From contig NZ_CM001440.1 in NCBI RefSeq assembly GCF_000244975.1, positions 248,001-312,000 of the forward strand: a stretch of 64,000 bases of DNA, in the 5' to 3' direction. The first letter of the stretch is position 1; each line of letters starts with the position of its first letter. This DNA comes from Saccharomonospora cyanea NA-134. Lineage in GTDB: Bacteria > Actinomycetota > Actinomycetes > Mycobacteriales > Pseudonocardiaceae. The notes under the pieces were generated by a model that was not told where the DNA came from, did not search any database, and saw only the letters and a list, made by a program, of their open reading frames with translations. Positions 29,725 to 45,358 of the stretch are shown one piece after another. The position numbers and the translations under genes were made by a program.

Positions 29725-29780
29725 GTGTCCGCACCCTGTGCACTCGTGTCCGCGCCTTGTGCGCGCCCGTACGCGGGCTT
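29725..29780. repeat. 21-nt GTGTCCGCA tandem repeat array A
   Basis: Two full 21-bp units beginning GTGTCCGC (29725-29745, 29746-29766) and a degraded third fill the gap between the convergent stop codons of the ABC ATPase (29719) and the YdcF-like gene (29780). Confidence 0.8.
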
Positions 29781-30454
29781 CACGCCGGACGCAGCAGCCG
29801 CGCCGTGTACCCGGCGGCGACCAGGCGGCGGTAGGCGGCGTCGACCTCGCCCGGCACGTCCTGGGCGATCGTGAACCCGCGCTCGGCGTAGGCGGTGACG
29901 CGCTGGGTCTCGCCAACGAGCATGTGCACCACGCGGTCGGGATCGCCGATCGCGGCCAGGTAGTCGTCCAGCGACGTGTGTGACGCCGAACAGCGCACGG
30001 CCAGCTCCGGCCACAGCTTCCGGCAGGTCGCGTACGCCCTGCGCTGCTGGTACGGCTTGCACACCAGTGTCGCCGTGCGCACCGGGACATCCCGCTCGGC
30101 GAGCAGTCGCCGGGTGAGGGTGACGTTCTCTCCGGTGTTGCGGGCGCGCGGCTCCACCAGCACGGCGTCGGCGGGGACACCCAGCGCGAGCGCCCGCTCC
30201 CGGTAGTGCACGGCCTCCCCACGCGGGAAGTGGTCCACCGTCGTGGGCGCGGTCGCACCCGTGAACACCACGAGTGGGAACCGCCCCGCCAGGTAGAGGG
30301 CCGCCGTGTGGTCGGCCACCCCCAGGTCGTGACTGCCGAGGCCCACACCCACGTCGCTCCGGCGGGGAGCGTGGTCCAGGACGTGGTAGCGCCACAGGAT
30401 CTCGGCGTCGGCGCGCACGGAGTCGTGAAGGGCCGTCGGATGTCGTCGTGCCAT
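29780..30454 (-). CDS. YdcF/SanA-like (DUF218) protein
   Basis: The 224-residue protein has a Rossmann-like DUF218 pattern: VGVGLGSHDLGVADHTAALY, PLVVFTGATAP, and VEPRARNTGENVTLTRRLL with the conserved SxNTxEN-like core. No membrane anchor is visible, so it is probably cytoplasmic, like E. coli YdcF, which binds SAM. Its reaction is unknown. The gene is alone on its strand. Confidence 0.82.
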   Translation of the reverse strand: MARRHPTALHDSVRADAEILWRYHVLDHAPRRSDVGVGLGSHDLGVADHTAALYLAGRFPLVVFTGATAPTTVDHFPRGEAVHYRERALALGVPADAVLVEPRARNTGENVTLTRRLLAERDVPVRTATLVCKPYQQRRAYATCRKLWPELAVRCSASHTSLDDYLAAIGDPDRVVHMLVGETQRVTAYAERGFTIAQDVPGEVDAAYRRLVAAGYTARLLRPA

Positions 30455-30558
30455 GAGACAGGGATACCGCGAAAACCGGCGGCGTCACGGTCGGGCTGAG
30501 GTGGTCCCCGGAAAACGCTGCCCGGCGACCGCTGGGTGAGTCTTCGTGCGGCGTGGGG

Positions 30559-30933
30559 TCAGGCGTCCGCGGTGGCCAGTTCCTCCAGTGCCGAGCGCAC
30601 GTCGGACAGGTGCGTCGGCCACGCGTCCTTCACCGCCTGCCACGCGGCGCGCAGTGACACGTTCTCGGCGAGCACGAGTACCGGCCCCTCGCCCCACCTG
30701 CTGGCCACCACCGTGCCGACGCGGTCGGCCTCGTCGGGCAGCGGCGCGCCGCCCGGGAGGAAGTCCACGGTGAGCGATGCGCCCGAGCCCGTGCCCGTGA
30801 CATCGTCGGTGACACCTCGCATGGCCGCGCGGTAGCCGCGCAGGACGCTTCTCTTGTGGCGCTCCGCCGGGAACGGGGTGGTGGGGTGGGCGGCGTTGTA
30901 CGCCTCCACGGACTCGAACATCTCTGGTGTCAC
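30559..30933 (-). CDS. Hypothetical protein, divergent from MerR regulator
   Basis: The 124-residue, probably soluble protein begins MTPEMFESVEAYNAAHPTTP and has alternating beta-strand-like and helical segments. No family is recognised. It shares a 119-bp promoter region with the MerR-type gene at 31052, where a MerR-like operator lies, and may be its target. Confidence 0.68.
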   Translation of the reverse strand: MTPEMFESVEAYNAAHPTTPFPAERHKRSVLRGYRAAMRGVTDDVTGTGSGASLTVDFLPGGAPLPDEADRVGTVVASRWGEGPVLVLAENVSLRAAWQAVKDAWPTHLSDVRSALEELATADA

Positions 30934-30947
30934 AGAAGCGAATTCTA

Positions 30948-30961
30948 CCCTGACGTTAGGG
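30948..30961. promoter_or_regulatory. Candidate MerR-type operator
   Basis: CCCTGACGTTAGGG is a nearly perfect 14-bp palindrome (one mismatched pair) between the divergent hypothetical gene and the MerR gene, 15 bp from the start of the former. Its CTGACGTTAGG-like core is typical of actinobacterial MerR sites. Confidence 0.55.
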
Positions 30962-31051
30962 CAAGTTTGCGTGACCTCCTCGGCTCTCGTTCTCGCTTAC
31001 CGGTCCTTTGTAGACATTCTGCGTCCAAGATCGAAAAGGAGTACGGTGATC

Positions 31052-31498
31052 ATGTCACCGGCCGAGGAAGTGAGGGTTCATCACGTGGATGAGCACATGC
31101 GCATCGGTGAAGTGTCCGCCCGGACGGGCCTCTCCCTGCGCACCATCCGCTACTACGAGGAAGTCGGACTGGTGACCCCCAGCGCGCGCAGCCAGGGAGG
31201 CTTCCGCCTGTACACGGAGCCGGACGTCGCGCGCCTGACACTCGTTCGCCGGATGAAACCCCTCGGGTTCCAGCTCGACGAGATGAAGGAGCTGCTCGAC
31301 CTCCTGTATCCGGCGCAGCGGACCGGCGACGGCGCCGGGACGCTCGACGAGCACGAACTGCGCAGGTTGCGCGAGTTCACCGAGCGAGCGGAACGTCGCT
31401 GCGCGCAACTGCGGGCCACCCTCGACACGGCTGAGGACTTCGCGGCCATGCTCCGCGACAGCCTCACCCGCCACCTGGAACGAGCCCGCCGCGCCTGA
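31052..31498 (+). CDS. MerR-family regulator
   Basis: The 148-residue protein has the MerR HTH (MRIGEVSARTGLSLRTIRYY ... GLVTPSARSQGGFRLY) and a long dimer helix (LDEHELRRLREFTERAERRC). The C-terminal part lacks the paired cysteines of metal sensors, so it likely senses stress or a small molecule. ATG 31052 or GTG 31046 may be the start; AAAAGGAG lies before both. It is divergent from a small hypothetical gene. Confidence 0.85.
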   Translation: MSPAEEVRVHHVDEHMRIGEVSARTGLSLRTIRYYEEVGLVTPSARSQGGFRLYTEPDVARLTLVRRMKPLGFQLDEMKELLDLLYPAQRTGDGAGTLDEHELRRLREFTERAERRCAQLRATLDTAEDFAAMLRDSLTRHLERARRA

Positions 31499-31505
31499 AG
31501 GCACC

Positions 31506-31606
31506 GTGTCCGCAGGTTACGTACGCGTGTCCGGAGCTCCCGTCCGTGTGGTCACACGCGCGCCGTGAGGTTGTGTGCACAGACTGCGGACACGATGTCC
31601 GCGGGT
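31506..31606. repeat. 21-nt GTGTCCGCA tandem repeat array B with inverted tail
   Basis: Units start at 31506, 31527 and (degraded) 31548, then an inverted unit (CTGCGGACACGATGTCCGCG) ends at the stop of the convergent gene (31606). The array fills the whole gap between the MerR and ADP-ribosylglycohydrolase stops. Confidence 0.75.
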
Positions 31607-32547
31607 CACGCCAGGTGTTCGGCGTAGAGATGGAGGTCCTTCGCGGCTTCGAGTCGGGACACGGCGTGGGACGGTAGCGCTGTGTAGCCGCTGTGCGCGC
31701 CCGCGAGGGCACCGGCCATCGCGGCGACGGTGTCGGTGTCCCCTCCCGCGCGGATGGCGAACCGGAGGGTGGCATCCGGCCTGCCGGGGTGCCGCAGGAA
31801 CGCCAGCAGGGCCAGCGGCACCGAGGCGGGCGCGGACACGTCGTTGCCCAGCTCCGCGGCGGCCTCTGCCGGGTCGGCCTCCTGCTCGGCCAGTTCGACC
31901 ACACGGTCGAGCTTGTCCTCCCACAGCGGCGAGGGCACGGCCTGGCGCACCGGTGGCACGAACTCCCGGGCCCGCACGGGCTCCGTGGGGGCGAGTTCGA
32001 GTGCGAGGTGGGCGGCCACGGCCTGACACACGGCGCCGTGCAGCGCGTCGGGATGGGCGTGGGTGACCTCGGCACTGCGGCGGGCGAGTTCCGCGACTTC
32101 CCGGACGTCACCGCCCACGAGCGCGATCGGTGCGACCCGCATCGCGCCGCCGTTGCCGAACGATCCGTCGGGGAACACGGCGCGGATCGCCTCACGCCAC
32201 GCTGTGCCCGCCACGATGAGCTCGAACGACTTGGTGACGCCGCCGCCGTAGCCGCGCCACGGTTCGGCGCGCCACGCCTCGGCGAACTCCAGCGCGAGCA
32301 CGTCGGCGTCGATGCGGCCGGTCGCCGTTCGCGGCGTGCCGCCGAGCCGGCGCGAGAGGTGCCGGGCGAGCACGAGCGCCAGCGCCGTGTCGTCGGTGTG
32401 GCGGAGCAGGTCGGTGCCGTTCTGCATGGCGATGATGTCGGCCTCGGTGACCCCGGACCTGCCTTCGAAGGGGGCGCCGAGGCAGTCGCCGAGCGCGAGC
32501 CCGAACAGCAGGCCGCGCGCCTTGTCGATACGGGACGTGTCATCCAT
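31606..32547 (-). CDS. ADP-ribosylglycohydrolase family protein
   Basis: This 313-residue protein has the family's metal-site motifs: GLALGDCLGAPFEG at the start, HTDDTALALVLARHL (about 50-64) and RAGGDTDTVAAMAGALAGA near the C-terminus. These bind two Mg ions in DraG-type enzymes, which remove ADP-ribose from proteins. ATG 32547 is where the family resemblance starts. Its target in this organism is unknown. Confidence 0.9.
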   Translation of the reverse strand: MDDTSRIDKARGLLFGLALGDCLGAPFEGRSGVTEADIIAMQNGTDLLRHTDDTALALVLARHLSRRLGGTPRTATGRIDADVLALEFAEAWRAEPWRGYGGGVTKSFELIVAGTAWREAIRAVFPDGSFGNGGAMRVAPIALVGGDVREVAELARRSAEVTHAHPDALHGAVCQAVAAHLALELAPTEPVRAREFVPPVRQAVPSPLWEDKLDRVVELAEQEADPAEAAAELGNDVSAPASVPLALLAFLRHPGRPDATLRFAIRAGGDTDTVAAMAGALAGAHSGYTALPSHAVSRLEAAKDLHLYAEHLA

Positions 32548-32640
32548 CGCAGGGCTTCCTCGCTGTCTCGCCGGCACCCCTCGGACACCTCGCCGGTACC
32601 CTGGTCCGGGTATGTGCATCTCCGATCAGGACAGCTTGGC

Positions 32641-34257
32641 ATGAGTTCTCGTGCGAGCGCAGCTACTTCTCCGGGTGGCGACGTCGCGGCGCAGGCACGC
32701 CGTCGACGGTCGTTCGCCGTCATCAGCCACCCCGACGCGGGCAAGTCGACGTTGACGGAGGCGTTGGCTCTGCACGCGCGCGTGATCGCCGAGGCGGGCG
32801 CCGTGCACGGGAAGGCGGGCAGACAGGGCGTGGTGTCCGACTGGATGGAGATGGAGCGCGCCCGCGGCATCTCGATCACGTCGGCGGCGTTGCAGTTCGC
32901 CTACCGCGACGCGGTGGTGAACCTGCTGGACACGCCGGGTCACGCGGACTTCTCCGAGGACACCTACCGGGTGTTGTCGGCCGTCGACTCGGCGGTGATG
33001 CTGCTGGACGCCGCGAAGGGCCTGGAGCCGCAGACGTTGAAGCTGTTCGACGTGTGCCGCCACCGCGGTATCCCGGTGATCACGTTCATCAACAAGTGGG
33101 ACCGCCCCGGCCGGGAGGCCCTCGCCCTCTGCGACGAGCTCACGGAGCGCATCGGGCTGACCCCGATGCCGTTGACGTGGCCTGTCGGCGAAGCCGGCCG
33201 GTTCCGCGGTGTCCTCGACGTCACGGACGGCTCGTTCGTGGCGTTCGAGCGGACCGCGGGCGGTGCCACGGTGGCCGGGGAGCAGCGGTTGCCCGCCACG
33301 CGTGCCGAGGAGGAGCTGGGGGAGGACTTCACCCGCGCGACGGAGGAGGCGGAGCTCGTCGCCGCGTCGGGTGGGGAGTTCGACCTCTCCGCCTACCTGC
33401 GGGGCAGCGCGACGCCGGTGCTGTTCGGCGCCGCGGTGCTGAACTTCGGGGTTCGGCATCTGCTGGACCTGCTGGTCGAGCTGGCGCCGAGGCCCGAGCC
33501 CAGGGTGGACGTCGACGGCAACCCCCGCCCGCTGGACGACGAGTTCTCGGCGTTCGTGTTCAAGGTGCAGACGGGTATGGACCCGGCGCATCGCGACCAG
33601 GTGGCGTTCGCGCGGGTGTGTTCGGGGGTGTTCGAACGGGGCATGGTGGTCACGAACGCCACCACGAAACGGCCGTTCGCCACGAAGTACGCCCACCAGG
33701 TCTTCGGGCAGCAACGCTCCACAGTGGACGTCGCGTATCCCGGTGACGTGATCGGCCTGGTCAACGCCTCCGCGCTGCGGGTCGGCGACACTCTGTACGC
33801 CGGGAAGCCCGCGGTGCGGTTCCCCGGTCTGCCGAGCTTCGCGCCCGCGCACTTCGCGGTGGCGCGGCCCTCGGACCTCAGCAAGGCCAAGCAGTTCCGC
33901 AAGGGGGTGGAGCAGTTGTCGTCGGAGGGCGTGGTGCAGTTGCTGACCTCCGATCTGCGGGGGGACGCCGCTCCCGTGTTCGCGGCGGTGGGGCCGATGC
34001 AGTTCGAGGTCGCCGCCCACCGCATGGAGTACGAGTTCAACTCGCCGGTGAAGCTCGACCGGTTGCCGTACTCGACGGTGCGGAGGTTGGCCGACCCGGC
34101 GCAGCGCGCGCTGGTGGACGCGGGCCGCAACAGTGAGGTGCTGACCCGGGCCGACGGCACCGACCTGGCGTTGTTCGCCGACGACATGAGCATGCGCCTC
34201 CTGCTGCGCCGCCACCCGGAGCTCCGGTTGGAGGCGCTGGTCGCGACCGGCGACTGA
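32641..34257 (+). CDS. prfC: Peptide chain release factor 3
   Basis: The 538-residue GTPase has P-loop SHPDAGKST near residue 28, DTPGHADFSEDTYR as switch II, and INKWDRPGREAL as the G4 loop, followed by EF-Tu-like domains II and III ending in the RF3-type VGPMQFEVAAHRMEYE. It removes RF1 or RF2 from the ribosome after peptide release. Length matches RF3 (about 530). ATG 32641 is selected because the protein family starts there, although an open frame continues upstream. Confidence 0.96.
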   Translation: MSSRASAATSPGGDVAAQARRRRSFAVISHPDAGKSTLTEALALHARVIAEAGAVHGKAGRQGVVSDWMEMERARGISITSAALQFAYRDAVVNLLDTPGHADFSEDTYRVLSAVDSAVMLLDAAKGLEPQTLKLFDVCRHRGIPVITFINKWDRPGREALALCDELTERIGLTPMPLTWPVGEAGRFRGVLDVTDGSFVAFERTAGGATVAGEQRLPATRAEEELGEDFTRATEEAELVAASGGEFDLSAYLRGSATPVLFGAAVLNFGVRHLLDLLVELAPRPEPRVDVDGNPRPLDDEFSAFVFKVQTGMDPAHRDQVAFARVCSGVFERGMVVTNATTKRPFATKYAHQVFGQQRSTVDVAYPGDVIGLVNASALRVGDTLYAGKPAVRFPGLPSFAPAHFAVARPSDLSKAKQFRKGVEQLSSEGVVQLLTSDLRGDAAPVFAAVGPMQFEVAAHRMEYEFNSPVKLDRLPYSTVRRLADPAQRALVDAGRNSEVLTRADGTDLALFADDMSMRLLLRRHPELRLEALVATGD

Positions 34258-34294
34258 GCTCCGCCGTCCTGCCGTACCCGGTCCGCACCGCCGC

Positions 34295-34759
34295 TCAGTC
34301 GGGCAGCGCCGTACACAGGTAGCAGCCCGCGGTGGCGCTGCGCACGTGGATGTAGTCCACGTCGGGCCGGGCCAGCAGCTCGTCGAGCGCGGGCTCGGCG
34401 TCGGCGTGCGCGACCCGGTGGGCCAGGACGAGCCGCCTGCCGTCGCCGTAGCAGTTGAGCAGCAGGCCGCTGCGGCCGAGTCTCGCCGGGTAGACACCCG
34501 GTTCCGCGTAGGGCTCGCAGCGCCGCTCGTGGACGAAGACCGGGCCGGGAAGGGGAACGTCCTCGCGCTCGCGGAAGGGGTCGTAGGTGAACGCGATGAG
34601 CGCCTCCCTGCCCGGCTCGATGGCGTCGAGGCACACCCGGCACGGAGCGGCTTCGGTCGGCACCTCGCGCCACGCCGGGTGTCCGTAGCCGGGGGCCCGT
34701 AGCGTGGTGCGGACCTCGTCGGCCAGCGCGGTGTCCATCGGTACGATCCGGAAACCCAT
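34295..34759 (-). CDS. DUF1203-like protein
   Basis: This 154-residue protein opens MGFRIVPMDTALADEVRTTL and has PCRVCLDAIEPGREALIAFT and GPVFVHERRCEPYA, features of the DUF1203 family, with a C-terminal ATAGCYLC. The paired cysteines suggest metal binding. Function is unknown. Confidence 0.8.
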   Translation of the reverse strand: MGFRIVPMDTALADEVRTTLRAPGYGHPAWREVPTEAAPCRVCLDAIEPGREALIAFTYDPFREREDVPLPGPVFVHERRCEPYAEPGVYPARLGRSGLLLNCYGDGRRLVLAHRVAHADAEPALDELLARPDVDYIHVRSATAGCYLCTALPD

Positions 34760-34788
34760 GCCCCGACCCTGCCTTGCCAGGGCGGAGG

Positions 34789-35250
34789 TCACCGGCGGTT
34801 TTCCGACCTGGACCTCACGTTGTCCACGGCCCAGCGGCCGGGACCGAAGACCGCGAGGAGCAGGAAGATCCAACTGTACAGCGCCGCGGGCTCGCCCATG
34901 TTCTCCAGCGGGAACAGGGCTGTCGGCTGGTGCACGACGAAGTAGGCGTAGGCCATGGCCCCCGAGCACAACAGCGCCGCCGGCCGTGTGAACAGCCCGG
35001 CCAGCACCAGGCCGCCCGCGCCGACCTCGATCACGCTCGCCCACCAGCCCGGCCACGAACCGAACGGCACGCCCGTGCCCGCGCCGTCGATGCCGCCGAA
35101 CGCGCCGAATCCCTGAACGCCGTGGCAGACGAAGAGGAATGCCACCACCATCCGGAACACGGCGAGCACGCTCGCCTCGGTCCGGCTCCGCCGTGACGTC
35201 GTGGTCGCGGACTCGGTGGTGTGCGGGGTCCTCCCGGTGGTGACGCTCAT
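34789..35250 (-). CDS. DoxX-family membrane protein
   Basis: The 153-residue protein has four hydrophobic helices with VFRMVVAFLFVCHGVQGFGA and SVIEVGAGGLVLAGLFTRPAA, the DoxX layout. DoxX proteins are small membrane proteins often tied to redox stress (in mycobacteria, part of a complex with SodA and SseA). The start ATG 35250 lies just before a short polar N-terminus. Confidence 0.85.
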   Translation of the reverse strand: MSVTTGRTPHTTESATTTSRRSRTEASVLAVFRMVVAFLFVCHGVQGFGAFGGIDGAGTGVPFGSWPGWWASVIEVGAGGLVLAGLFTRPAALLCSGAMAYAYFVVHQPTALFPLENMGEPAALYSWIFLLLAVFGPGRWAVDNVRSRSENRR

Positions 35251-35374
35251 AGCTCGCTCCCTCATGTCTCGGTGTCGTCACCAGGACGTCGAACGGGAGC
35301 GGCCGACTTCGACATCACCACCGAACTTTCTTCCGGCCGGTTCTCCCTTCGACGGGAGCGGCCGTGGGCGCGGT

Positions 35375-35455
35375 TCAGAACCAGCCGCGTTCGCGGGCGA
35401 GCCTGGCCGCCTCGGTGCGGTTGCGGGCGTCGGTTCGTCGCGGTGTGCGCTGGAG
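35375..35455 (-). pseudogene. C-terminal remnant of a LuxR-type response regulator
   Basis: Reading on the minus strand, the last 20 codons before the stop spell DARNRTEAARLARERGWF, the usual end of a NarL/LuxR response-regulator DNA-binding domain. No HTH, receiver domain or start remains. It directly follows the decayed ABC permease and suggests a lost regulator of that transporter. Confidence 0.65.
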
Positions 35456-35462
35456 GTCGTGG

Positions 35463-36199
35463 TCATGGTTTCGCACGACGATAGGACAGCGCGGCCACAC
35501 CGGCCATGACCACGGTCCACCCGGCGAGCACGGCGAGGTGACCGACGACCGCCGCGCCGTCGAACTGGGCCGTCGCCAGCCCGGCGAGGTGGTAGGTCGG
35601 CAGGACGAGGCGACGGTGCCGAAGAAGCCGGGCAGGATCTCCAGCGGCATCCACAGCCCGGCGACGACCGCGGTCGGCATCAGGATCGCGTGGAGCACCG
35701 CCGTGGTGGTGTTGGGTTTGGCCTGGAATCCCGCGGCCAGGCCGAGCAGCGCGAACGGCACGGCGCCGAGGACGAGAACGCCGTACAGGCGCAGCACCTC
35801 GAACACGGAGGCCTGCAACGTCCCGGTCAGCGCGGCGGTGAGCGTCATCGCCAGCAACACGCCCACCGAGTAGGGCAGCGCGGCGAGCACCTTGGCCGCC
35901 AGTGTCACCGGCAACGGCACCGCCTGCACCCGCTTCACCCGTAGCCAACCGATCTGGCGGTCCTGCGCCACGCCGATGCCCGGGTTCGTCAACGTCACGG
36001 TCAACACGCCGAAGGTGCCGAAGGTGGCCAGCATCCGAGTGCCCGCGGACAGCTCCTCCGACGAGTAGCCACCGAACATCGACACGAACAGGGCGAAGAA
36101 ACCGACCGGCATCAGGATCGAGAAGAACAGCGCGGTGGGTTCCCGCCAGATCGCCCGCAGCTCGTCGAGAACCTCCACGTCGAGCAGTCGCCGAGTCAC
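35463..36199 (-). pseudogene. Frameshifted ABC-2 type permease
   Basis: The first frame encodes a typical ABC-2 exporter permease through residue about 200 (VLDELRAIWREPTALFFSIL ... WMPLEILPGFFGTVAS). Near 35600-35615 the frame breaks, and the C-terminus continues in another frame (LPTYHLAGLATAQF ... LSYRRAKP) to a stop at 35463. One small indel explains it. The upstream ATPase gene is also broken, so the transporter is probably dead unless these are assembly errors. Confidence 0.85.
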
Positions 36200-37105
36200 C
36201 GGACCACCTCCTGCCGCGCGCGCTGCGGTCGCGAGGTGGGTGTCACGACCGCCTCCTCCAGCCCCGCGCCCTCGACCCGGAGATCGCTCAGTTCGGGGTC
36301 CTCGGCGAGCAGTCGCCGCAACAGTGCCTCGGGGGAGCGAGTGGCGATCCGGACCAGCTCTCCCTCCCGGTCGAGCGAGGCCACCCCGGGCAGTGCGGTG
36401 AGCACGTCGTCGTCGAGGACGGTGCGTGCGACGACCGTGCGGTCCGGCAACCGGGAGATCAACTTCTCCGGGGTGTCCGAGGCGAGCACCCGGCCCCGGT
36501 CGATCACCACGACGCGGTCGGACACGGTCGCCGCCTCGTCGATCAGGTGGGTGGTGAGCAGGATCGCCGTGCCCTTCGCCCGCCGTGTCGCGAGGATCTG
36601 CCAGAACCGCCTGCGGACGGGTGTGTCCAGCCCGCAGGCGGTTCGTCGAGTACCAGCAGTGCCGGATCGTTGACCAGCGCCATGGCCAGTTGCAGGCGCT
36701 GTTTCTGGCCTCCGGACAGCTTCGCCGCGCGGCGGTCGGCCAGGTCGGTCAGTCCCAGTTCCGCCATGATCGGCCCGGCGCTCGACCTCGGCAGTCCACC
36801 CCGGACAGCCGAACCGGCGACCAGCTCGCCGACCTTCAGCGTGCTGGGGTGGCCCAGCGATGCTGCACGACCCCCAACCACCGCCGCGTCGAGGCGTTCC
36901 TCGGATCACCACCGGCCAGACTGATCTCACCCCGCTGCCGGGGCAGCAACCCCACGAGCAGGTTCACCAGCGTCGTCTTGCCCGCACCGTTGGGGCCGAG
37001 CAGTGCCACGCACCCGCCTGCCCCGACGGTCAGGTCGACGCCGTCGAGGGCCGTCGTCCCGCCGTAGCGGTGAGCCAACCCCCGCGCACTCAACACCGTT
37101 CGCAC
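36196..37105 (-). pseudogene. Frameshifted ABC exporter ATPase (two breaks)
   Basis: Walker A GPNGAGKTT lies in the first frame (37105 to about 36860), the signature [13 protein letters not shown] and Walker [11 protein letters not shown] in a second frame (about 36860-36640), and the switch [14 protein letters not shown] plus the C-terminal domain in a third (about 36640-36196). Two separate small indels are needed. The stop overlaps the start of the permease pseudogene by four bases. Together with that gene and the regulator remnant this is a decaying drug-exporter-type operon. Confidence 0.85.
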
Positions 37106-37230
37106 ATCTCCTCCACTGTCGTCTCGAAAGAGACCGTGCCCGTCGGGGCCGGTTCCCGGTAGTGAAGGTGTGGCACGTGCGGGGAGTGACGAATGTCAAC
37201 CGCGCTGGTGGCGGCACGGTCAGACGTTGT

Positions 37231-37425
37231 TCAACGAGTGGTGAGAGCCGCGGCCAGGCACCACACGGCCGCCGCTGCCAGAGCGGCGGCCAGCACGCCC
37301 GGCCACCACTCCGAGGTGGAAGCTGCCAGAGACACCTGTATCGCCGCCGTCGTCGCGAACGTCAGCGCGAGGACGAACAGGGCCATGCGGGTGGTTGGCC
37401 ACGGTCTCGGAATACGTTGCGGCAT
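37231..37425 (-). CDS. Small membrane protein, two helices
   Basis: The 64-residue protein (MPQRIPRPWP...) has two hydrophobic segments (MALFVLALTFATTAAIQVSL and WWPGVLAAALAAAAVWCLAA). GAGGAGG precedes ATG 37425 at 9 bases, which favours it over GTG 37431. No family is recognised. Confidence 0.62.
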   Translation of the reverse strand: MPQRIPRPWPTTRMALFVLALTFATTAAIQVSLAASTSEWWPGVLAAALAAAAVWCLAAALTTR

Positions 37426-37525
37426 CGACACCGGCCTCCTCGGTGCGGGACATGCGGGATATCGCTCGTCCCGCCCCGGGAGTTACTCCGGTGGTGCCAG
37501 GTCACACGGTGCTCGAACGGTGCGA

Positions 37526-38134: not shown

Positions 38135-38220
38135 GTCCAGTCCTCCCAGTTGGTTGCGATGCTCGACATGCAACCGCGTTCGCCGCCTCCGCCGCGTCGC
38201 CCGCGGGTCGGTGATCTCGT

Positions 38221-38234
38221 ACGACTTAAGTCGT
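38221..38234. promoter_or_regulatory. Perfect 14-bp palindrome, possible response-regulator site
   Basis: ACGACTTAAGTCGT is perfectly symmetric and lies between the divergent MmpS-like gene (start 38134) and the kinase gene (start 38303). NarL/LuxR-type regulators bind such short inverted repeats, so the regulator at 39572 may control both directions. Confidence 0.6.
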
Positions 38235-38302
38235 CGTCCACGGCCCGCGCGAGCGCCGATCCGCTGATCACTCCTTCCGGCTCGCCGCCGTACGCTCGGG
38301 CA

Positions 38303-39550
38303 ATGCGCGAGTCCGCCTCCTCCCGAGCCAGGTCCGTGCTCGGCGTGCTGGTCACGGTGCTTGCCGTCGGTACGAGCGTGTTGAGCAGCCTCTACGTGTT
38401 CGCCGCGGAGACCTACGTTCCGCACTCGGAGCAACTCGACGTCACGTGGCGACCCGCGCTCGGAGTGCTCGCCGCACTCACGGCGGGCGTGCTCCTGTGC
38501 TGGCGACACAGCCGCCCCGTCGTGGTGACGGGAGTGGCCGTCATTCCGCCGGTGGTGTTCGTGGCCGACGCTCTCGCCGCGTTGATCTCGCTCGCGGCGC
38601 TGACCGCGCACCGGCGCGACCGGGTCGGCTGGCTCGGGGTGGCGGCCGTGTTCGTGGCCACCACCGTGGGGGTGGCCCACGACGCGCACCGGCACGCCGA
38701 CGTCTCGGTCATCAAGATCATCTTTGGGGCGGACGGGGTTCCGTTCGTGGTCGTCGTGCTCGTGGCGGCGCTGCTGACGGCCATCCCCGCCGCACTCGGC
38801 ACGCACCGGGGCACGAAACGCGAGCTGGCGCGACACACGCAGGCCGAGCGGGCGTTGCAGGCGGAGATGGCCCGAAAGGACGAGCGTTCCCGCATCGCCA
38901 GGGAGATGCACGACGTCCTGGGCCACCGGCTGTCGCTGCTGTCCCTGCACGCGGGAGCCCTGGAAGTCATGGCGCCACAGGAGTCCGACCGTGCGGCGGA
39001 GGTCGCGCGCACGGTCCGGACCACGGCGCGGCAGTCGCTGGAGGACCTGCGTCAGGTGATCGGCGTGCTCAAGGACGGCAGGGGGTTCGGCTCCCAGGCG
39101 CCCGACCGGCCCCGAAGATACGGCCCGCCCGGGCTGACGGATCTGCCCACGCTGATCGGCAACACCCGGGAGGCAGGTCTGCCGGTGAACGTCACCGTGC
39201 TCGTCGACAACGCGGGTGAGGCACCGGAAACACTGGCCACGACCGCCTACCGCGTGGTGCAGGAGTCGCTCACCAACGTCCTCAAGCACGCACCCTCGAC
39301 GACCGTGGACGTGACGGTGCGAGGCGGCCCCGGAGTCGGTCTGACGGTGGAGATCGGCAACCCGCTGCCCGAGTCCGCGCCGGCCGAGGCGCCGATCGGT
39401 TCGGGCAGCGGTCTCGCCGGGCTCGCCGAGCGGGTGGCGCAGCTGGAGGGCACCATCAGCTACGGCTCCACCGAGCAGGGCCGCTTCGCCGTCAAGGCGT
39501 GGCTGCCCTGGGCGCAGGGGGGAGACGCGGGCGGTGTGAGAGCCGGGTGA
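38303..39550 (+). CDS. Two-component sensor histidine kinase (HisKA_3 type)
   Basis: This 415-residue protein has about six hydrophobic segments in its first 160 residues, then the HisKA_3 phospho-acceptor motif SRIAREMHDVLGHRLSLLSL with His near 206, and a HATPase domain (QESLTNVLKHAP ... GSGLAGLAERVAQLEG). It autophosphorylates on His in response to a membrane signal. It pairs with the NarL-type regulator 22 bp downstream. The upstream ABC transporter typical of such kinases is decayed. Confidence 0.92.
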   Translation: MRESASSRARSVLGVLVTVLAVGTSVLSSLYVFAAETYVPHSEQLDVTWRPALGVLAALTAGVLLCWRHSRPVVVTGVAVIPPVVFVADALAALISLAALTAHRRDRVGWLGVAAVFVATTVGVAHDAHRHADVSVIKIIFGADGVPFVVVVLVAALLTAIPAALGTHRGTKRELARHTQAERALQAEMARKDERSRIAREMHDVLGHRLSLLSLHAGALEVMAPQESDRAAEVARTVRTTARQSLEDLRQVIGVLKDGRGFGSQAPDRPRRYGPPGLTDLPTLIGNTREAGLPVNVTVLVDNAGEAPETLATTAYRVVQESLTNVLKHAPSTTVDVTVRGGPGVGLTVEIGNPLPESAPAEAPIGSGSGLAGLAERVAQLEGTISYGSTEQGRFAVKAWLPWAQGGDAGGVRAG

Positions 39551-39571
39551 ACAGCTCCCTAGCATGGCCGG

Positions 39572-40231
39572 GTGCCGCTGCGTGTAGTGCTCGTCGACGA
39601 CGATCCGCTGGTCCGGACCGGTCTCGCCATGATTCTCGACAGCACGCCGGACATCGAGGTCGTAGGACAGGCGAGCGACGGTGACGAGGTCGTGCCCCTG
39701 GTCAACCGGCACGCGCCTGACGTCGTCGTCATGGACATCCGGATGGCCCGCATGGACGGGCTCGCCGCGACGGCGGCGGTCCGCGCGCTGCCCCGGCCAC
39801 CCAAGGTACTGGTCCTGACCACGTTCGACCTCGACGAATACGTGTTCGACGCGCTCACGGCGGGCGCCAACGGCTTCCTGCTCAAGGAGAGCTCACCGCA
39901 GGAGATCATCGACGCGGTACGCGTGGTCGCGCGAGGTGAGTCGATGCTGTCTCCCCGAAGCACAACGCAGTTGATCGGTCACTTCGTGTCGTTGAAGGCG
40001 AATCCACGGCGTCGGGAGGCCGCGGTGAAACTGAGCACACTGACCGATCGCGAACGCGAGGTCGTCACAGCGGTTGCGCAGGGAAAACCCAACGCGGGCA
40101 TCGCCGAGGAGCTGTTCATGAGTGAGGCCACCGTGAAGACGCACATCACACGGGTCTTTGCCAAACTCGACGTCGCAAATAGAGTCCAGCTGACAATTTT
40201 CGCCTACGAGGCGGGCCTCGTGACTCCGTGA
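39572..40231 (+). CDS. NarL/LuxR-family response regulator
   Basis: The 219-residue protein has a receiver domain (VVLVDDDPLVRTGLAMIL with DD at the start, phospho-Asp in VVVMDIRMARMDG near 54, Lys in LLKESSP) and a C-terminal LuxR HTH (LTDREREVVTAVAQGKPNAG then EATVKTHITRVFAKL). The kinase gene ends 21 bp upstream. It may bind the palindrome at 38221-38234. Confidence 0.93.
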   Translation: MPLRVVLVDDDPLVRTGLAMILDSTPDIEVVGQASDGDEVVPLVNRHAPDVVVMDIRMARMDGLAATAAVRALPRPPKVLVLTTFDLDEYVFDALTAGANGFLLKESSPQEIIDAVRVVARGESMLSPRSTTQLIGHFVSLKANPRRREAAVKLSTLTDREREVVTAVAQGKPNAGIAEELFMSEATVKTHITRVFAKLDVANRVQLTIFAYEAGLVTP

Positions 40232-40301
40232 CAGTCGCTTCCCACGCGACCCGGCGGACACACGTCATATTGACTCTCGTGAAGACACCTGCCTAACCTC
40301 G

Positions 40302-40321
40302 CGCTAAGCGGCGGCTTAGCG
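40302..40321. promoter_or_regulatory. Hairpin/inverted repeat upstream of the conservon
   Basis: CGCTAAGC-GGCG-GCTTAGCG is a perfect 8-bp inverted repeat with a 4-bp loop, 70 bp after the response-regulator stop and 72 bp before cvnA. Without a T run it is more likely an operator than a terminator. Confidence 0.5.
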
Positions 40322-40392
40322 ATGTCGGAGGCTGCGTTGAGTCCGTCGCACGGGTTTGGGGGCCCAATGAGATACGTGTCGCTGGAAGGGCC

Positions 40393-43158
40393 TTGAGCGC
40401 GTTGTTGAACAAGAGTGCCGCCTCACACAGTGGGCGTTCGACCATTCGCACCCGAGTGCTCGCCATCGCCTTCATCCCGAGCCTCGTGTTCCTGCTGACC
40501 GGCGTCGTGCTCACCGTGTACCTCGTCTTCGACGCGATACAGACCCGGTCCTTCAGCACCAAGGTTCACGAAGCCGCCAGACCCGCCGGTGTGCTGTTCG
40601 CGAACGTGCGCGAGGAACGCAGGCTGACGCTGCAGGAGCTCGCCATGACACGGTCGCTGCGGGTGGAGCTCACGGAGCAGCGCAAGCGGACCGACTCCGC
40701 GGCCAGTGGTATGGCCGACGACCTGCAGAGCATCGCCGAGGACGCCCCGGACAACGTCCGGCAGCACATCCGCGACGCCGAGGAGCGGATCTCGCGGCTC
40801 GGGGAGTTCCGCCGGGACGTCGACGCGGGGAACGTGTCGCTGCAGGAGGCGTACGACTTCTACAACGGGATCATCGACTCCTACGTGCTCGGCCTGAACG
40901 GCGTGGCGCAGGAGACGCCGAGCGCCGAGACGGCGTACAAGCGCATGGTGGCGATGCCGCTGTTCGTGAGCGCGGACGCCATGTCGCGTGGTGACGCGCT
41001 CGCCGCCGCAGGTATCGCGGGCGGCGGGCTGACCGAACAGGAGTTCCGCACCTACATCGGTCAGGTCGGTGCCTACCACTCCACGTTGCAGCAGTCGGTG
41101 CCCGACATGATCCCGTCGGTCCGCGAGAAGTACGAGGCGCTGGTGTCCGGCGACGCGTGGAAGACGCTGACCAGCGTCGAGAACGCGTTCCTGCGGGGCA
41201 ACACCACCGACCTGCCCGTGGCCGAGCCCGCGTGGCGAGCCGCGGCCGCCGAGGTCGGTGCCACACTGTGGAACCTCTACGTCGAACAAAGCACGGTGGC
41301 CACCGACCTCGCGCTCGACGAGGCGGACTCGACGCTGTACACGTCGATCATCGCGGGCGCGGCGATCATCGCGGCCGCCCTGGCGGTGTTCCTGCTGGCG
41401 TGGCGGTTGTCCGACCGGCTGGTGAAACGGCTCGTCGCACTCCGAGAGGCCACTCTCGACGTCGCCGAGGAACGCATGCCCCGCATCGTCGAACGGCTCC
41501 GAAAGGGAGAGCAGGTGGACCTCGCCACCGAGGTTTCCTACCTCGACCACGGTGACGACGAGATCGGCCAGGTCGCGGAGGCCTTCAACCAGGCACAGCG
41601 CACCGCCATCGCGGCGGCCGTCGACGAGGCCAAGACCAGGGAGGGCACCCAGAAGGTCTTCCTCAACATCGCCCACCGCAGCCAGGTCATCGTGCACCGG
41701 CAGCTGTCGGCACTCGACGCCGCCGAGCGCAAGCAGGAGGACCCCGACCAGCTCGACCTGCTGTTCAAGCTCGACCACCTTTCGACGCGGGCACGCCGCA
41801 ACGCCGAGAACCTGATCATTCTGGGTGGCGAGCAGCCCGGCAGGCAGTTCCGCAACCCCGTGCCGGTGGGCGACATCGTGCGCGGTGCGATCGCCGAGAC
41901 CGAGGACTACAAGCGCGTCAGCATGGGCAAGCTGCCCGGCTCCGCCGTCGCGGGCCCCGCCGTCAGCGACCTGGTGCACCTGCTCGCCGAGTTGATCGAC
42001 AACGCGACGTCGTTCTCACCACCGCAGTCGCGGGTGGAGGTGCGTGGCGAGCTCGTGGGCCGGGGCGCGGTCATCGAGATCGAGGACCAGGGCATCGGTA
42101 TGGAGCCCGAGGAACTGGACCGGCTCAACGAGATGCTGCGCAACCCGCCGGACTTCAGCTTCATGGCGCTGTCCGAGGAACCGAGGCTCGGACTGTTCGT
42201 GGTCGCCAGGCTGGCGGCGAAACACGGTCTCACCGTGACCCTGCGCGACTCGGCCTACGGCGGCACCCGGGCGATCGTGCTCGTGCGCGCCGACCTGCTG
42301 AGCGACGTGCCGGGTGACGAGGACGTCACGACACCACCCGAGACCGCTCGGGAACCGCAGAGCGACAGCCCGGTGGCGCCGGTCAGTCGCAGGCCGAGAG
42401 CCCTCCCGAGGCGCAACGGCAGCGAGAAGGTCAACGGCGCGAACGCGACCACCGTGACCACCACGCTGGAGCCGACGTTCACCGACGACCCGGGAACGGC
42501 CACCGTGCGCCGCGCGCCGGTGTCGCCGCCGAGCGAGCCCAAGCAGCTGCCCGCGGGCGGTGGCGACCACCTCGACCGCCCCGAACTGCCCCGGCGCAGG
42601 CGTCGCGGTGAGGAGGAGCCGGAAAACCCGGCGGGCGACCACTCCGAGAACACCGTCGAAGCCGTGCAGGGAGAACTGCTGGAGGAGGACGTGCTCGAGT
42701 GGACGCCGGACTCGTCGCGGAGCGTGGGCAGGCACGCCGAGGAGGACGCGGAGTCGGAGCCGACTCGATACGTGCCCAAGCTGCCGAGGGAACTGCCGAG
42801 AGCGGCACGCCCGGCCGGGGAGTCCCGGCCCCGGCACCAGGCCCGGCCCGCGCACGAGCGGCCGGTGCAGCCCGGTGGCCCGGAGAGCGCCAGGCCCGTC
42901 TCCGCCACGCCGCCCGCCGAAGGCGGCCTCGACGGGGAACGGCCGCCGCTACCGCGTCGCCGCAAGCAGCAGAACCTCGCGCCGCAGCTCATGGACGACA
43001 CCAGCACCCTCGATCGCGTGGGTGGCGGTGATGTCGCCGGGAACGAGGACGCCGGCGACACCTCGCCCGAGCAGGCCCGCAGCAGGCTCTCGGCGTTCCA
43101 GCAGGGAACCCGCCGAGCTCGACAGCACCAACCCGGCCCCGACGATTCTGGAGACTGA
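40393..43158 (+). CDS. cvnA: CvnA: nitrate-sensing-domain histidine-kinase-like protein of a conservon
   Basis: The 921-residue protein has a first membrane helix (about 22-48), an extracellular NIT-type sensing domain (about 50-310), a second helix (about 315-339), a HAMP segment, then a kinase-like core with N-box LAELIDNATSFSPPQ and G-boxes EIEDQGIGM and GLFVVARLAAKHG. A 280-residue polar, proline- and charge-rich tail follows. In Streptomyces, conservons resemble eukaryotic receptor-G-protein sets: CvnA is the membrane receptor-like part. TTG 40393 is used as start with GAAGGG close upstream. Confidence 0.9.
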   Translation: MSALLNKSAASHSGRSTIRTRVLAIAFIPSLVFLLTGVVLTVYLVFDAIQTRSFSTKVHEAARPAGVLFANVREERRLTLQELAMTRSLRVELTEQRKRTDSAASGMADDLQSIAEDAPDNVRQHIRDAEERISRLGEFRRDVDAGNVSLQEAYDFYNGIIDSYVLGLNGVAQETPSAETAYKRMVAMPLFVSADAMSRGDALAAAGIAGGGLTEQEFRTYIGQVGAYHSTLQQSVPDMIPSVREKYEALVSGDAWKTLTSVENAFLRGNTTDLPVAEPAWRAAAAEVGATLWNLYVEQSTVATDLALDEADSTLYTSIIAGAAIIAAALAVFLLAWRLSDRLVKRLVALREATLDVAEERMPRIVERLRKGEQVDLATEVSYLDHGDDEIGQVAEAFNQAQRTAIAAAVDEAKTREGTQKVFLNIAHRSQVIVHRQLSALDAAERKQEDPDQLDLLFKLDHLSTRARRNAENLIILGGEQPGRQFRNPVPVGDIVRGAIAETEDYKRVSMGKLPGSAVAGPAVSDLVHLLAELIDNATSFSPPQSRVEVRGELVGRGAVIEIEDQGIGMEPEELDRLNEMLRNPPDFSFMALSEEPRLGLFVVARLAAKHGLTVTLRDSAYGGTRAIVLVRADLLSDVPGDEDVTTPPETAREPQSDSPVAPVSRRPRALPRRNGSEKVNGANATTVTTTLEPTFTDDPGTATVRRAPVSPPSEPKQLPAGGGDHLDRPELPRRRRRGEEEPENPAGDHSENTVEAVQGELLEEDVLEWTPDSSRSVGRHAEEDAESEPTRYVPKLPRELPRAARPAGESRPRHQARPAHERPVQPGGPESARPVSATPPAEGGLDGERPPLPRRRKQQNLAPQLMDDTSTLDRVGGGDVAGNEDAGDTSPEQARSRLSAFQQGTRRARQHQPGPDDSGD

Positions 43159-43166
43159 GGAACACC

Positions 43167-43577
43167 ATGGCCAACTCGGTAGTCAACGAACTCGACTGGC
43201 TGCTCGACGATTTGGTGAGCCAGGTCGCTGGAGCCGACCGAGCTGTCGTCCTGTCGTCCGACGGACTGCTGATCGGTCGTTCGAGCAACTTGTCCGAAGG
43301 GGACGGTGAGCATCTCTCGGCCGTCGCCTCCGCCTTCCAGAGCCTCGCGAGGGGCACGGGACGGCACTTCGGCGGAGGGCAGGTGAGGCAGACGGTCGTC
43401 GAGATGGACCACGCCTTCCTGTTCGTCACGGCGGCCGGGCGCGGTGCGTGCCTCGCGCTGCTGACGTCCGAGGACGCGGACATGGGCATGGTGGCCTACG
43501 CGATGAACATGATGGTGAAGCGCGTCGGCGCCGTGCTGAGCGCCGCGCCTCGGGTGGAGCACCACATCACGCCATGA
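43167..43577 (+). CDS. cvnB: CvnB: roadblock/LC7-domain protein
   Basis: The 136-residue protein shows the roadblock/LC7 pattern (ELDWLLDDLVSQVAGADRAV then LSSDGLLIGRSS). Such proteins regulate small GTPases, here the CvnD product. It starts 8 bp after cvnA and its stop overlaps the cvnC start (ATGA). Confidence 0.93.
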   Translation: MANSVVNELDWLLDDLVSQVAGADRAVVLSSDGLLIGRSSNLSEGDGEHLSAVASAFQSLARGTGRHFGGGQVRQTVVEMDHAFLFVTAAGRGACLALLTSEDADMGMVAYAMNMMVKRVGAVLSAAPRVEHHITP

Positions 43578-43945
43578 GCCGAGACGACGAGGAGATGTGG
43601 TCGGACGAGGGCGCTGGCCTCGTCCGCTCGTATGTCGTGACCGGCGGCCGGACCCGGTCGGACAACTACGGCCTCGACATGATGACGCTGGTGGTGGCGC
43701 TGTGCACTCCGGCAGAGGCCACGCATCTCCCCGAGGAGTACGCGAAGATCGTCCGGCTGTGCCAACACCCGATGTCGGTGGCGGAGGTCGGAGGTCACAT
43801 CGACCTCCCCCTGCCCGTGGTGAAGGTTCTGCTCAGTGATTTGATCGAGCAGAACTACGTGATCTTCCGTAAGGCCGCGCCCCCGACCGAAACACCCAAC
43901 AAGCACGTACTGCAGGCGGTTCTCGATGGTATCCGCAAACTCTGA
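43574..43945 (+). CDS. cvnC: CvnC: DUF742 protein
   Basis: The 123-residue protein has the DUF742 layout: LVRSYVVTGGRTRSDNYGLD near the start, winged-helix-like EYAKIVRLCQHPMSVAEVGG, and LPLPVVKVLLSDLIEQNYV at the end. It bridges CvnB and CvnD in known conservons. ATG 43574 overlaps the cvnB stop; cvnD starts within its last codons. Confidence 0.92.
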   Translation: MSRDDEEMWSDEGAGLVRSYVVTGGRTRSDNYGLDMMTLVVALCTPAEATHLPEEYAKIVRLCQHPMSVAEVGGHIDLPLPVVKVLLSDLIEQNYVIFRKAAPPTETPNKHVLQAVLDGIRKL

Positions 43946-44519
43946 CGACCGGCGCCTGAGGGCGACGGCGGTGAAGCTGCTGATCGCCGGTGGTTTCGGT
44001 GTCGGCAAGACGACGATGGTGGGCTCGGTGAGCGAGGTACCGCCCTTGCGTACCGAGGAGATGCTGACGTCCGCGTCGGAAGGCGTCGACGATCTTTCCG
44101 GCGTGGAGGCCAAGAGCACCACCACGGTGGCGCTGGACTTCGGGCGCATCACGATCAGCCCCGACCTGATCCTGTACCTGTTCGGCACACCGGGACAGGA
44201 CCGGTTCTGGTTCATGTGGGACGAGCTGGCGCAGGGGGCGCTCGGCGCGGTGGTCCTCGCGGACACGCGCCGGTTGGAGTCCTGTTTCCCCGCCGTGGAC
44301 TTCTTCGAACGCAGGGGGCTGCCGTTCGTCGTCGGCGTGAACTGTTTCGACAAAGCCCACCGGTACGGCACCGAGGAGGTGCGCGCGGCGCTCGACGTGG
44401 GTCCGGGGGTGCCGGTGTTGCTGTGCGACGCGCGCGACCGCGAGTCCACCAAGCAGGTCCTCGTCACCCTGATCCAGCACGTGATGGCATCGGCGAACAT
44501 GGTCCCGGCCCCGTACTGA
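43926..44519 (+). CDS. cvnD: CvnD: small Ras-like GTPase of the conservon
   Basis: This 197-residue protein has P-loop LIAGGFGVGKTTMVGS near residue 20-35, switch region FGTPGQDRFWFMWDEL and NCFDKAH as an N(K)xD-like box, as in the CvnD GTPases. It completes the cvnABCD operon, starting 20 bp inside cvnC. The cycle of GTP binding probably relays the CvnA signal; the target is unknown. A 21-nt repeat array starts 5 bp after its stop. Confidence 0.93.
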   Translation: MVSANSDDRRLRATAVKLLIAGGFGVGKTTMVGSVSEVPPLRTEEMLTSASEGVDDLSGVEAKSTTTVALDFGRITISPDLILYLFGTPGQDRFWFMWDELAQGALGAVVLADTRRLESCFPAVDFFERRGLPFVVGVNCFDKAHRYGTEEVRAALDVGPGVPVLLCDARDRESTKQVLVTLIQHVMASANMVPAPY

Positions 44520-44523
44520 CATC

Positions 44524-44590
44524 GTGTCCGCAGGTTGTGCACGCGTGTCCGCACTTCCTGTACGGGTGTTCGCACTTCCCGTACGCGGGT
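44524..44590. repeat. 21-nt GTGTCCGCA tandem repeat array C
   Basis: Three consecutive 21-bp units start at 44524, 44545 and 44566, each with GTGTCCGCA or GTGTTCGCA followed by a TTCC/TTGT block and GTACG or GCACG. The array fills the gap between the convergent stops of cvnD (44519) and the methyltransferase (44591). Confidence 0.88.
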
Positions 44591-45220
44591 TCAGCGGGCG
44601 GGGCGTGCCGTCACCTGGATCATGGGACTCGCCGGCACCCAACGGGGGAGCTCGGCGAACTCCTCCACCTCGTCGAGCTCGAACTCGCCACGACGCCGCA
44701 GAGTGCCGAGAGTGTTCCGGTTGGGGTGACAGCCTGCGCCGAGGACCTTCCACAACGGTGTGATGCGGTCCTGAACGCGGGCCAGACGGCCGTCGCCCCG
44801 GACGTGTTCCAGCAGCACCAGCCGCCCGTCGTCGCGCAGCACGCGCCGAGCCTCCGCGAGTGCCGCGTCCGGGTCGGTGACGGTGCAGAGCACGAGCGTG
44901 AACACCACCGCGTCGAAGGAGGCGTCGGCGAACGGCAGCGCCTCGGCCGACGCGTCGGAGACATCCACGGGGATGCTCGTTTCGGCGGCTCGGCGAGCCA
45001 GCCGAACCCTCATGGCCGGGTCCGGCTCGACGGCCACGACACGCTCCGCAGAGCGGAGATAGGGCAGGTTGGCGCCGGTGCCCGCGCCGACGTCGAGGAC
45101 CGCCCCCGTCAGGCCGTGCAGCAGTGCCTCGCGACGCTGCCCGAGGAAGCTTCGCTCTGCGGCGGCGTTCAGCCGGTCGTAGTACGCGGCGAAGATTCGG
45201 TGTGCTCGCACGTGTCCCAC
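44591..45220 (-). CDS. UbiE-like SAM-dependent methyltransferase
   Basis: The 209-residue protein has motif I AVLDVGAGTGANLPYL near residue 42, VVAVEPDPAMRVRLARRA, and FDAVVFTLVLCTVTDPDAAL, similar to methyltransferase type-11 enzymes such as thiol or phospholipid N-methyltransferases. The HVRGDGRLARVQDRITPLWK segment resembles human METTL7-like proteins. It sits between two repeat arrays. Confidence 0.85.
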   Translation of the reverse strand: MGHVRAHRIFAAYYDRLNAAAERSFLGQRREALLHGLTGAVLDVGAGTGANLPYLRSAERVVAVEPDPAMRVRLARRAAETSIPVDVSDASAEALPFADASFDAVVFTLVLCTVTDPDAALAEARRVLRDDGRLVLLEHVRGDGRLARVQDRITPLWKVLGAGCHPNRNTLGTLRRRGEFELDEVEEFAELPRWVPASPMIQVTARPAR

Positions 45221-45253
45221 GCTAGTGCCTGAACGCCCGGAGCGTCGGCCGTC

Positions 45254-45358
45254 GTGTCCGCAGCTTGTCGACGCGTGTCCGCAGTTCCGGTACGTGTGTC
45301 CGCACTTCTCGAACGCGTGGCCGCGCCACAGGCTGCGGACACGCGTGCACAGGCTGGG
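45254..45358. repeat. 21-nt GTGTCCGCA tandem repeat array D with inverted tail
   Basis: Four units start at 45254, 45275, 45296 and 45317 (the last GTGGCCGCG), then an inverted unit (CTGCGGACACGCGTGCACAG) ends about 5 bp from the glcF stop (45363). This is the longest of the four arrays. Confidence 0.85.

Follow-up and report, generated by a model that had tools for sequence, protein, structure and literature searches.

Oriented tandem rows of protein-binding sites are known from the Sal boxes of TTF-I and from plasmid iterons, the latter with a period of 21–22 bp; both are single loci with known binding proteins. Another type of element is the repetitive extragenic palindromes (REPs) tagged by GTAG or CGTC, which, according to excerpts of PMC3733652, lie within 20 bp of 3′ ends and between convergent genes. 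The nearest published analogue that we found for tandem arrays near stop codons is the GGGAATC heptamer repeat of Xanthomonas; as described in excerpts of PMC4692102, these arrays and the GGGGA(C/T)T arrays of Nostoc consist of G-rich 7-base units, for which quadruplexes were proposed, and 16% of the heptamer arrays are located between convergent open reading frames. Here, we analyzed arrays of a 21-base tandem unit, formed by GTGTCCGCA and 12 variable bases, at gene ends in a 64,000-base stretch of Saccharomonospora cyanea NA-134 (bases 248001–312000 of the 5,408,301-base genome, one contig; hereafter, the window). A sequence-only reading of the window had reported four such arrays. Re-reading of the sequence recovered all four at their positions, and they are members of a genome-wide repeat family in Saccharomonospora.

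The arrays resemble the Sal boxes and iterons in the oriented tandem layout, and the iterons also in the period, but they occupy hundreds of dispersed sites. Like the heptamer arrays, as far as the excerpts of PMC4692102 describe them, they are tandem, lie near stop codons, are sometimes inverted when convergent and keep conserved positions; they differ in the 21-base unit, the free spacer and the strong convergent enrichment. With REPs and bacterial interspersed mosaic elements (BIMEs), they share, judging from the excerpts of PMC3733652, the short unit, the high copy number, the location mostly in convergent or unidirectional intergenic gaps near 3′ ends, the occasional opposed pairs and the species-specific families. 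However, their units measure exactly 21 bp, follow one another as direct tandem repeats and show no base-pair covariation. No description of these arrays was present among the matches listed for the open-licence PMC literature, as judged by titles and abstract openings.

Anatomy of the unit and its position at gene ends

The pattern GTGTCCGCA-N12-GTGTCCGCA gave 80 matches in the S. cyanea genome (G000) and none when reversed as a control, which excludes a chance origin. Stretches were fetched around the array places (80 from the list obtained with this pattern and 100 of 138 from a second list); together with ten unselected 20-kb stretches and the window, they comprised 805,366 bases, and the G000 loci, apart from those ten stretches, were picked for holding units. 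Gene calling relied on an in-house codon-usage program, with a check by eye in the window, where gene names were taken from Pfam. In the fetched G000 loci, 221 of 231 exact GTGTCCGCA cores were intergenic, and the ten cores inside called genes were dropped before counting. All nine exact cores in the window were intergenic.

The logo of the unit reads C-GTGTCCGCA, six freer bases, G and then Y-ACGC. A loose C-R-Y-C motif, strong only in its final C, comes before the first units of the runs (heads). The runs comprise one (40 runs), two (80), three (22) or four (1) units, and degeneration or loss is more frequent in the units farther from the head: among 133 heads of G000, the second core was exact in 69 cases and the third in 8, and among 64 heads of G009, in 56 and 41 cases, respectively. 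The exact period of 21 proposed by the sequence-only reading was borne out, since, of 82 pairs of same-strand neighbouring exact cores spaced by 19–21 bases in the G000 loci, 80 had a spacing of exactly 21, and in G001, G009 and G002, every neighbour closer than 42 bases was 21 apart (16, 150 and 60 pairs). For opposed cores arranged tail to tail, the distance was 8, 28–29 or 49–50 bases in 22 of 39 G000 cases; in G009, it was 8 bases in 13 of 20. Such spacings, near 8 plus multiples of 21, would be expected if units were gained or lost from a symmetric ancestor.

Nine G000 cases (e.g., L219, L230, L232 and L235) were arranged head to head with 14–15 bases between the cores, and several of these carry a GAGAC-N5-GTCTC palindrome, which may mark the end of an ancestral element. 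The region C1:652276-662897 of G000 (L184) looks like a tandem multiplication: it contains four array copies at intervals of about 3.5 kb, and an identical flank (TGCGGACTCACCCGG...) accompanies three of these copies.

Placement was assessed in the first 400 kb of G001, which were not picked for units, and gaps shorter than 20 bases were dropped from the gap and orientation counts of G001, the G000 loci and the six-genome set. Units were present in 7/42 convergent, 1/152 tandem and 1/65 divergent gaps (convergent versus other gaps, 7/42 and 2/217, Fisher p 5e-5), and their density was 5.2 per kb in convergent gaps versus 0.16 in tandem and 0.17 in divergent ones. All nine stop-facing heads of this sample started 2–12 nt past the stop. 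In the G000 loci, mostly array-chosen, units were present in 42/110 convergent, 41/304 tandem and 9/133 divergent gaps, and 34 of 35 tandem gaps of at least 100 bases had their nearest unit in the first half. The distance from the stop codon is sharp: 42 of the 188 stop-facing heads from six genomes started exactly 4 nt past it, and among heads 1–14 nt from a stop, this spacing was found in 21/59 for G000 and 17/38 for G009 (p ~1e-10 each versus uniform). Convergent enrichment, stop-side location in tandem gaps and the 4-nt distance strongly support the association with 3′ ends suggested earlier, and mapping the units against stops in related genomes, as had been proposed, showed that their placement is not random.

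Two further arguments were tried and set aside. The possibility that the repeat supplies the stop codon, with TGA being part of the unit, was ruled out, a stop triplet being present at −7 to −5 in 6 of 207 heads without the 4-nt spacing. The finding that all convergent-gap units are directed away from a stop (106/106) was dropped as evidence, as it is true by definition.

Two individual places deserve mention. The array at L198 6010-6201 of G000 lies directly past a stop codon, and S. piscinae has none there (L080 6597-6678); a second TGA at the far junction may point to an insertion at the stop codon. A divergent gap at L182 3424-3834 contains an array and a conserved stretch, common to G001, that ends in a T-run hairpin and is possibly an unannotated small RNA.

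Conservation between species and related families

Gaps were compared between species through adjacent orthologous genes, predicted proteins shorter than 50 aa being dropped. Units were present in both genomes in 8 of the 9 G000 array gaps pairable with G001, the exception being array 4 of the window. With G009, whose loci were array-chosen, ten gaps had units in both genomes, four in G000 only and one in G009 only.

Using the first run per side of each gap, we compared core and spacer at the orthologous sites of G000 and G001. Among units recognized by at most two core mismatches, core positions were mismatched in 4/189 comparisons (2%), spacer positions 10–16 in 68/145 (47%) and positions 17–21 in 29/100. 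At fourfold sites of 82 genes, 2771 of 12193 positions differed (22.7%). It follows that the spacers changed more than silent sites, while the core and the place stayed. Position 16, which played no part in detection, hardly varied either, its mismatch being 0.10, 0.03 and 0.06 in three comparisons. Same-site spacers were no closer to each other than rank-matched shuffles (3.35 versus 3.39 of 7 alike, n = 20). When intergenic sites were found by the context outside the core, the core was exact in 103 cases in the fetched loci, had one mismatch in 10 and two mismatches in 3 before the chance background was reached; the corresponding counts in the unselected 400 kb of G001 were 16, 2 and 0. Spacer types common to species exceeded the expectation from independent columns for G009 in G000 (0.64 versus 0.48) and for G002 in G000 (0.82 versus 0.60), with no excess for G001 in G000 (0.52 versus 0.48). 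This suggests, although it is no proof of, a moving pool of unit types.

The GTGTCCGCA family was found in 8 of 12 genomes of the genus and in none of 49 other genomes. The total numbers of GTGTCCGCA pairs were 80 in G000, 197 in G001, 46 in G003, 30 in G004, 202 in G010, 321 in G009, 138 in G002 and 156 in G005. The first five of these genomes have ACGC-tailed pairs (67, 128, 37, 15 and 122, respectively) and the other three TAGCC-tailed pairs (244 in G009, 40 in G002 and 30 in G005), with no overlap between the two sets. Since the TAGCC pairs are far below the totals in G002 and G005, these genomes mostly use further tails.

No GTGTCCGCA pair was found in G006, G007, G008 and G011, which instead contain GCGAGTCGCC-N11 pairs (9, 73, 34 and 56, respectively); in the other 76 genomes of that search, there were none. 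In G007, for which a 317-kb contig picked for carrying the methyltransferase rather than for units was examined together with 20 chosen loci, 16 of 18 stop-facing heads of the GCGAGTCGCC arrays started 2–18 nt past the stop, and the arrays occupied 9/63 convergent, 13/172 tandem and 1/73 divergent gaps. Within the taxonomic family, triplets of CCGCGAGT-N13 were present in 8 genomes out of 60, belonging to six genera, with at most 111 per genome and a control of 0; class-wide, they occurred in 1 of 296 genomes, with one match. In the array-chosen loci of G086, 19 of 21 stop-facing heads of the CCGCGAGT arrays started 0–29 nt past the stop, and the arrays were present in 11/23 convergent, 12/54 tandem and 1/20 divergent gaps.

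The sequence CGCGTGTCC-GC aligns with CGCGAGTCCTGC with one substitution and one indel, and a common descent of the two types is plausible. If so, the period was restored to 21 after the indel, and the period itself would be constrained. The occurrence of the exact 21-base period in lineages with differing units fits two helical turns, although it is not a proof of them. Six other genera were searched for 21-base periodicity, with 120–140 kb covered in each. A weak GCGAGT signal, with two pairs at 21, was obtained in G025, and there was no signal in the sample of G086, which has 111 CCGCGAGT triplets elsewhere; thus, samples of this size are too small to show absence.

A third family, with GTGAAGGACTCCTTCCCTGC-like units, a period of 30 and inverted copies, was observed in contig C64 of G007 (L291-L306) and at the loci L265, L266 and L267. 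It fills gaps past stop codons in species without GTGTCCGCA and looks like repeated hairpin terminators. A period-30 intergenic family (GGCGAACGGCACCTTCGCCTCGTGTGGTGG), hairpin-like by eye, was also seen in the stretches L405-L410 of G024, which belongs to a different genus.

Possible roles of the arrays

The RNA structure of the gaps was assessed for lengths of 40–260 bases, with 20 shuffles each and z below −2 taken as structured. Convergent gaps without exact units were structured in 34/74 cases, gaps with two-way arrays in 14/26 and gaps with one-way arrays in 1/18 (one-way versus array-less, Fisher p 0.001). The sequence-only reading had proposed bidirectional termination as a function of the arrays. 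The results do not demonstrate this, as exact units run in one direction only in 20 of 42 convergent array gaps of the G000 loci and the one-way arrays are rarely structured.

The unit as an RNA hairpin was rejected for lack of covariation: its possible pairs were no commoner than expected from independence. The RNA energy of the unit was −4.3 versus −3.8 for shuffles. Tail-to-tail unit pairs are palindromic, but they form only a part of the arrays. Intrinsic hairpin terminators resemble the arrays in that they fill the same gaps in array-less relatives, as judged by eye. By eye, the G007 gaps lacking array 2 or 3 contain a hairpin or inverted repeats. The region 3′ of the same GTPase-like gene as at array 3 was viewed in 22 of 30 loci, 20 of them from other genera. 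Among these 20, ten had no gene call there, five had a gap of 0–11 bases or an overlap, three (G100, G083 and G096) had a GC hairpin by eye and two had another layout. The arrays differ from such terminators in the rare structure of the one-way gaps and in the absence of a T-run hairpin, which was sought at the window arrays, and an intrinsic terminator was rejected on these two grounds. For two-way arrays, a hairpin role is possible because of their structure; the U-run test covered the window arrays.

Based on the above results, we tentatively suggest that the arrays may be rows of recognition sites for a putative sequence-specific factor that ends transcription, a reading that we prefer while holding it to be somewhat doubtful. 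Each 21-bp unit has a free spacer and one constant core, in which C-GTGTCCGCA is followed at a distance of seven bases by a G, and the period of two helical turns would place the cores on one face of the DNA. A putative sequence-specific protein, whose specificity would differ between lineages, may bind two to four cores, and the bound array would form a 3′ boundary at which RNA polymerase is stopped or released, where relatives use a hairpin terminator. In a convergent gap, the two genes may be served by separate arrays, the head of each lying at the stop of the respective gene, and this would result in the inverted two-way form. The analysis shows the anatomy, period and placement of the arrays, their shared positions, the constant core, the scarce RNA structure of one-way arrays and the partition among lineages; the protein, its binding and its effect on transcription are what we infer. 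The constant core is consistent with protein binding. Taken together with the exact period, the shared place, the free spacer and the rare RNA structure, it agrees better with a row of recognition sites at transcript ends than with a passive repeat. Binding to DNA is favoured over an RNA element because of the constant 9-mer and the lack of a strict orientation. The CCGCGAGT and GCGAGTCGCC arrays of relatives, with the same anatomy and an exact period, are also counted in favour of termination by such a factor. On the whole, the arrays of this soil actinobacterium and its relatives have the appearance of punctuation marks that are placed at gene ends and are specific to lineages.

Several observations weigh against this suggestion. 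The orientation of the arrays is a bias, not a rule: tandem gaps of six genomes comprised 37 sense-only, 12 antisense-only and 28 mixed cases (p 0.0005), and the related arrays of G007 and G086 show no orientation bias (6 to 5 in each). Convergent gaps are mostly array-less (35/42 in the unselected G001 sample), such gaps in the structure test lacked structure as well in 40/74 cases, and some divergent gaps do contain units (9/133 in the G000 loci). Only one of three G000 array gaps was shared with G005. In addition, the recognition of units by their core favours the core in the comparison of its divergence with that of the spacer. The main rival, a selfish repeat, is nearly as likely.

According to this rival, the arrays are a REP- or BIME-like selfish interspersed repeat that spreads by a mobilizing activity and slippage, survives where it is least harmful and has no function of its own. 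It ranks so high because the arrays are specific to lineages, differ in copy number and include identical units in runs. Array 4 is absent from the orthologous gap of four relatives (G001, G005, G009 and G007), the array-bearing species range from 30 to 321 pairs, and long runs of identical units occur, e.g., in G003 and G001. The location is also that of REPs, which in the excerpts of PMC3733652 are placed within 20 bp of 3′ ends and at convergent genes, and the arrays are likewise intergenic, near 3′ ends and more frequent in convergent gaps. Nevertheless, the core is constant though the spacers are saturated, decayed copies are few and the overlap with structured gaps is small. The sharp 4-nt stop distance would not be expected from mere tolerance, but targeted insertion could still explain the peak. 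The 21-base unit is not a palindrome of 20–40 bp as in REPs, and neither a GTAG nor a CGTC tag is present in the logo of heads, spacers and downstream flanks. The RAYT (Y1) domain PF01797 was found neither in G000 nor in five of the eight array-bearing genus genomes, and the five Y1 loci examined, with about 1.5 kb on each side, contained no exact core. A RAYT-driven REP was therefore rejected as the present driver in G000. If the arrays are selfish, they would correspond to REPs without the palindrome, and their relation to stop codons would be unusually exact.

A further reading, which we consider improbable, is that the arrays are rows of rut-like Rho-loading sites, i.e., unstructured and C-richer RNA after the stop that would lead to Rho-dependent termination without a dedicated protein. 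In the 60 nt past the stop, the excess of C over G was 0.08 versus 0.00 in G000 (p 9e-7), 0.05 in G001 (p 0.03), 0.06 in G009 (p 0.004) and 0.23 versus 0.01 in G007 (p 3e-5), and because of this excess on the sense strand, the reading is kept open; the low structure of one-way arrays also agrees with it. However, Rho needs pyrimidine-C dimers rather than a fixed 9-mer or an exact period, antisense arrays exist, and counts of YC were not raised in G000 (10.6 versus 10.4) and G001 (9.1 versus 10.3), being raised only in G009 and G007. Slightly less probable still is an array for a nucleoid or supercoiling protein, whose sites would organize the chromosome or absorb supercoils between convergent genes without ending transcripts: the exact two-turn period, the convergent preference, the lack of a strict orientation and the dispersed sites, which are sparse in one chromosomal section (the stretch from 2.5 to 3.7 Mb has 5 of the 80 pairs), agree with it, but the 4-nt peak past stops and the rare structured RNA in one-way gaps point to transcript ends and not to architecture alone.

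If the arrays do end transcripts, a part of this bacterial family would punctuate genes not only by hairpins and Rho but also through a sequence-specific factor, and closely related species would differ in the punctuation sign although many of its positions are kept. It would then be possible to test factor-dependent termination in GC-rich actinobacteria directly, with the arrays serving as bait for finding the factor. A broader proposal, which we regard as unlikely, is that a part of Pseudonocardiaceae has a fast-evolving punctuation system with a dedicated terminator protein whose specificity changed several times, the arrays being rewritten genome-wide to follow it, with many places kept, via exchange or re-copying of units between loci. 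The types that may reflect such changes are the CCGCGAGT types, GTGTCCGCA with ACGC tails and GTGTCCGCA with TAGCC and other tails.

The four arrays in the window

As the sequence-only reading had it, arrays 1–3 lie between convergent stops, and inverted units occur in arrays 2 and 4. Its statement that every array is located within about 8 bp of a stop applies to the exact cores of arrays 1–3 and fails for array 4. Tandem Repeats Finder (score 30) gave a period-21 row for arrays 3 and 4 only, and Rfam at the gathering score had no matches in the whole window.

Array 1 (29725..29780, plus strand) has an exact core at 29725-29733 and a degenerate one, GTGTCCGCG, at 29746-29754. The upstream stop, of an ABC transporter ATPase gene, ends at 29719, and the first core follows 5 nt later. 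The array occupies the whole 60-base convergent gap, with a DUF218 gene on the opposing side. Array 2 (31506..31606, no strand assigned) is composed of an exact core at 31506-31514, a degenerate core at 31527-31535 (GTGTCCGGA) and an inverted exact core at 31585-31593. It is located in the convergent gap between genes for a MerR-type regulator and an ADP-ribosylglycohydrolase, with the core 7 nt past a stop ending at 31498 and the opposing stop at 31606. This array is common to G000 and G001 and is not present in G005 and G007.

Array 3 (44524..44590, plus strand) contains exact cores at 44524 and 44545 and GTGTTCGCA at 44566. The stop of the small GTPase-like gene (Pfam ATP_bind_1) ends at 44519, and the first core lies 4 nt on; the stop and linker (44515..44523, plus strand), TGA and then the 4-nt CATC, exemplify the preferred spacing and the C-R-Y-C linker. 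The opposing stop, at 44591, belongs to a convergent methyltransferase gene. Units were found in this gap in all seven array-bearing species with a detected methyltransferase orthologue, five of them having exact cores and G003 and G004 only one-mismatch cores; the orthologue was not found in G002.

Array 4 (45254..45358, no strand assigned), with exact cores at 45254, 45275 and 45296 and an inverted exact core at 45334-45342, is placed in the gap that separates the methyltransferase gene start from the stop (45363) of the next minus-strand gene, an iron-sulphur (CCG/Fer4) gene. Its closest exact core is 20 nt off the stop, with only degenerate sequence nearer. In contrast to the four relatives whose orthologous gap lacks units, G003 has them. 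Unrelated to the 21-base arrays, four other tandem repeats of the window, at 9651-9710, 25138-25240, 50161-50210 and 56361-56504 (periods 22, 27, 9/18 and 9/27, respectively), sit within predicted genes.

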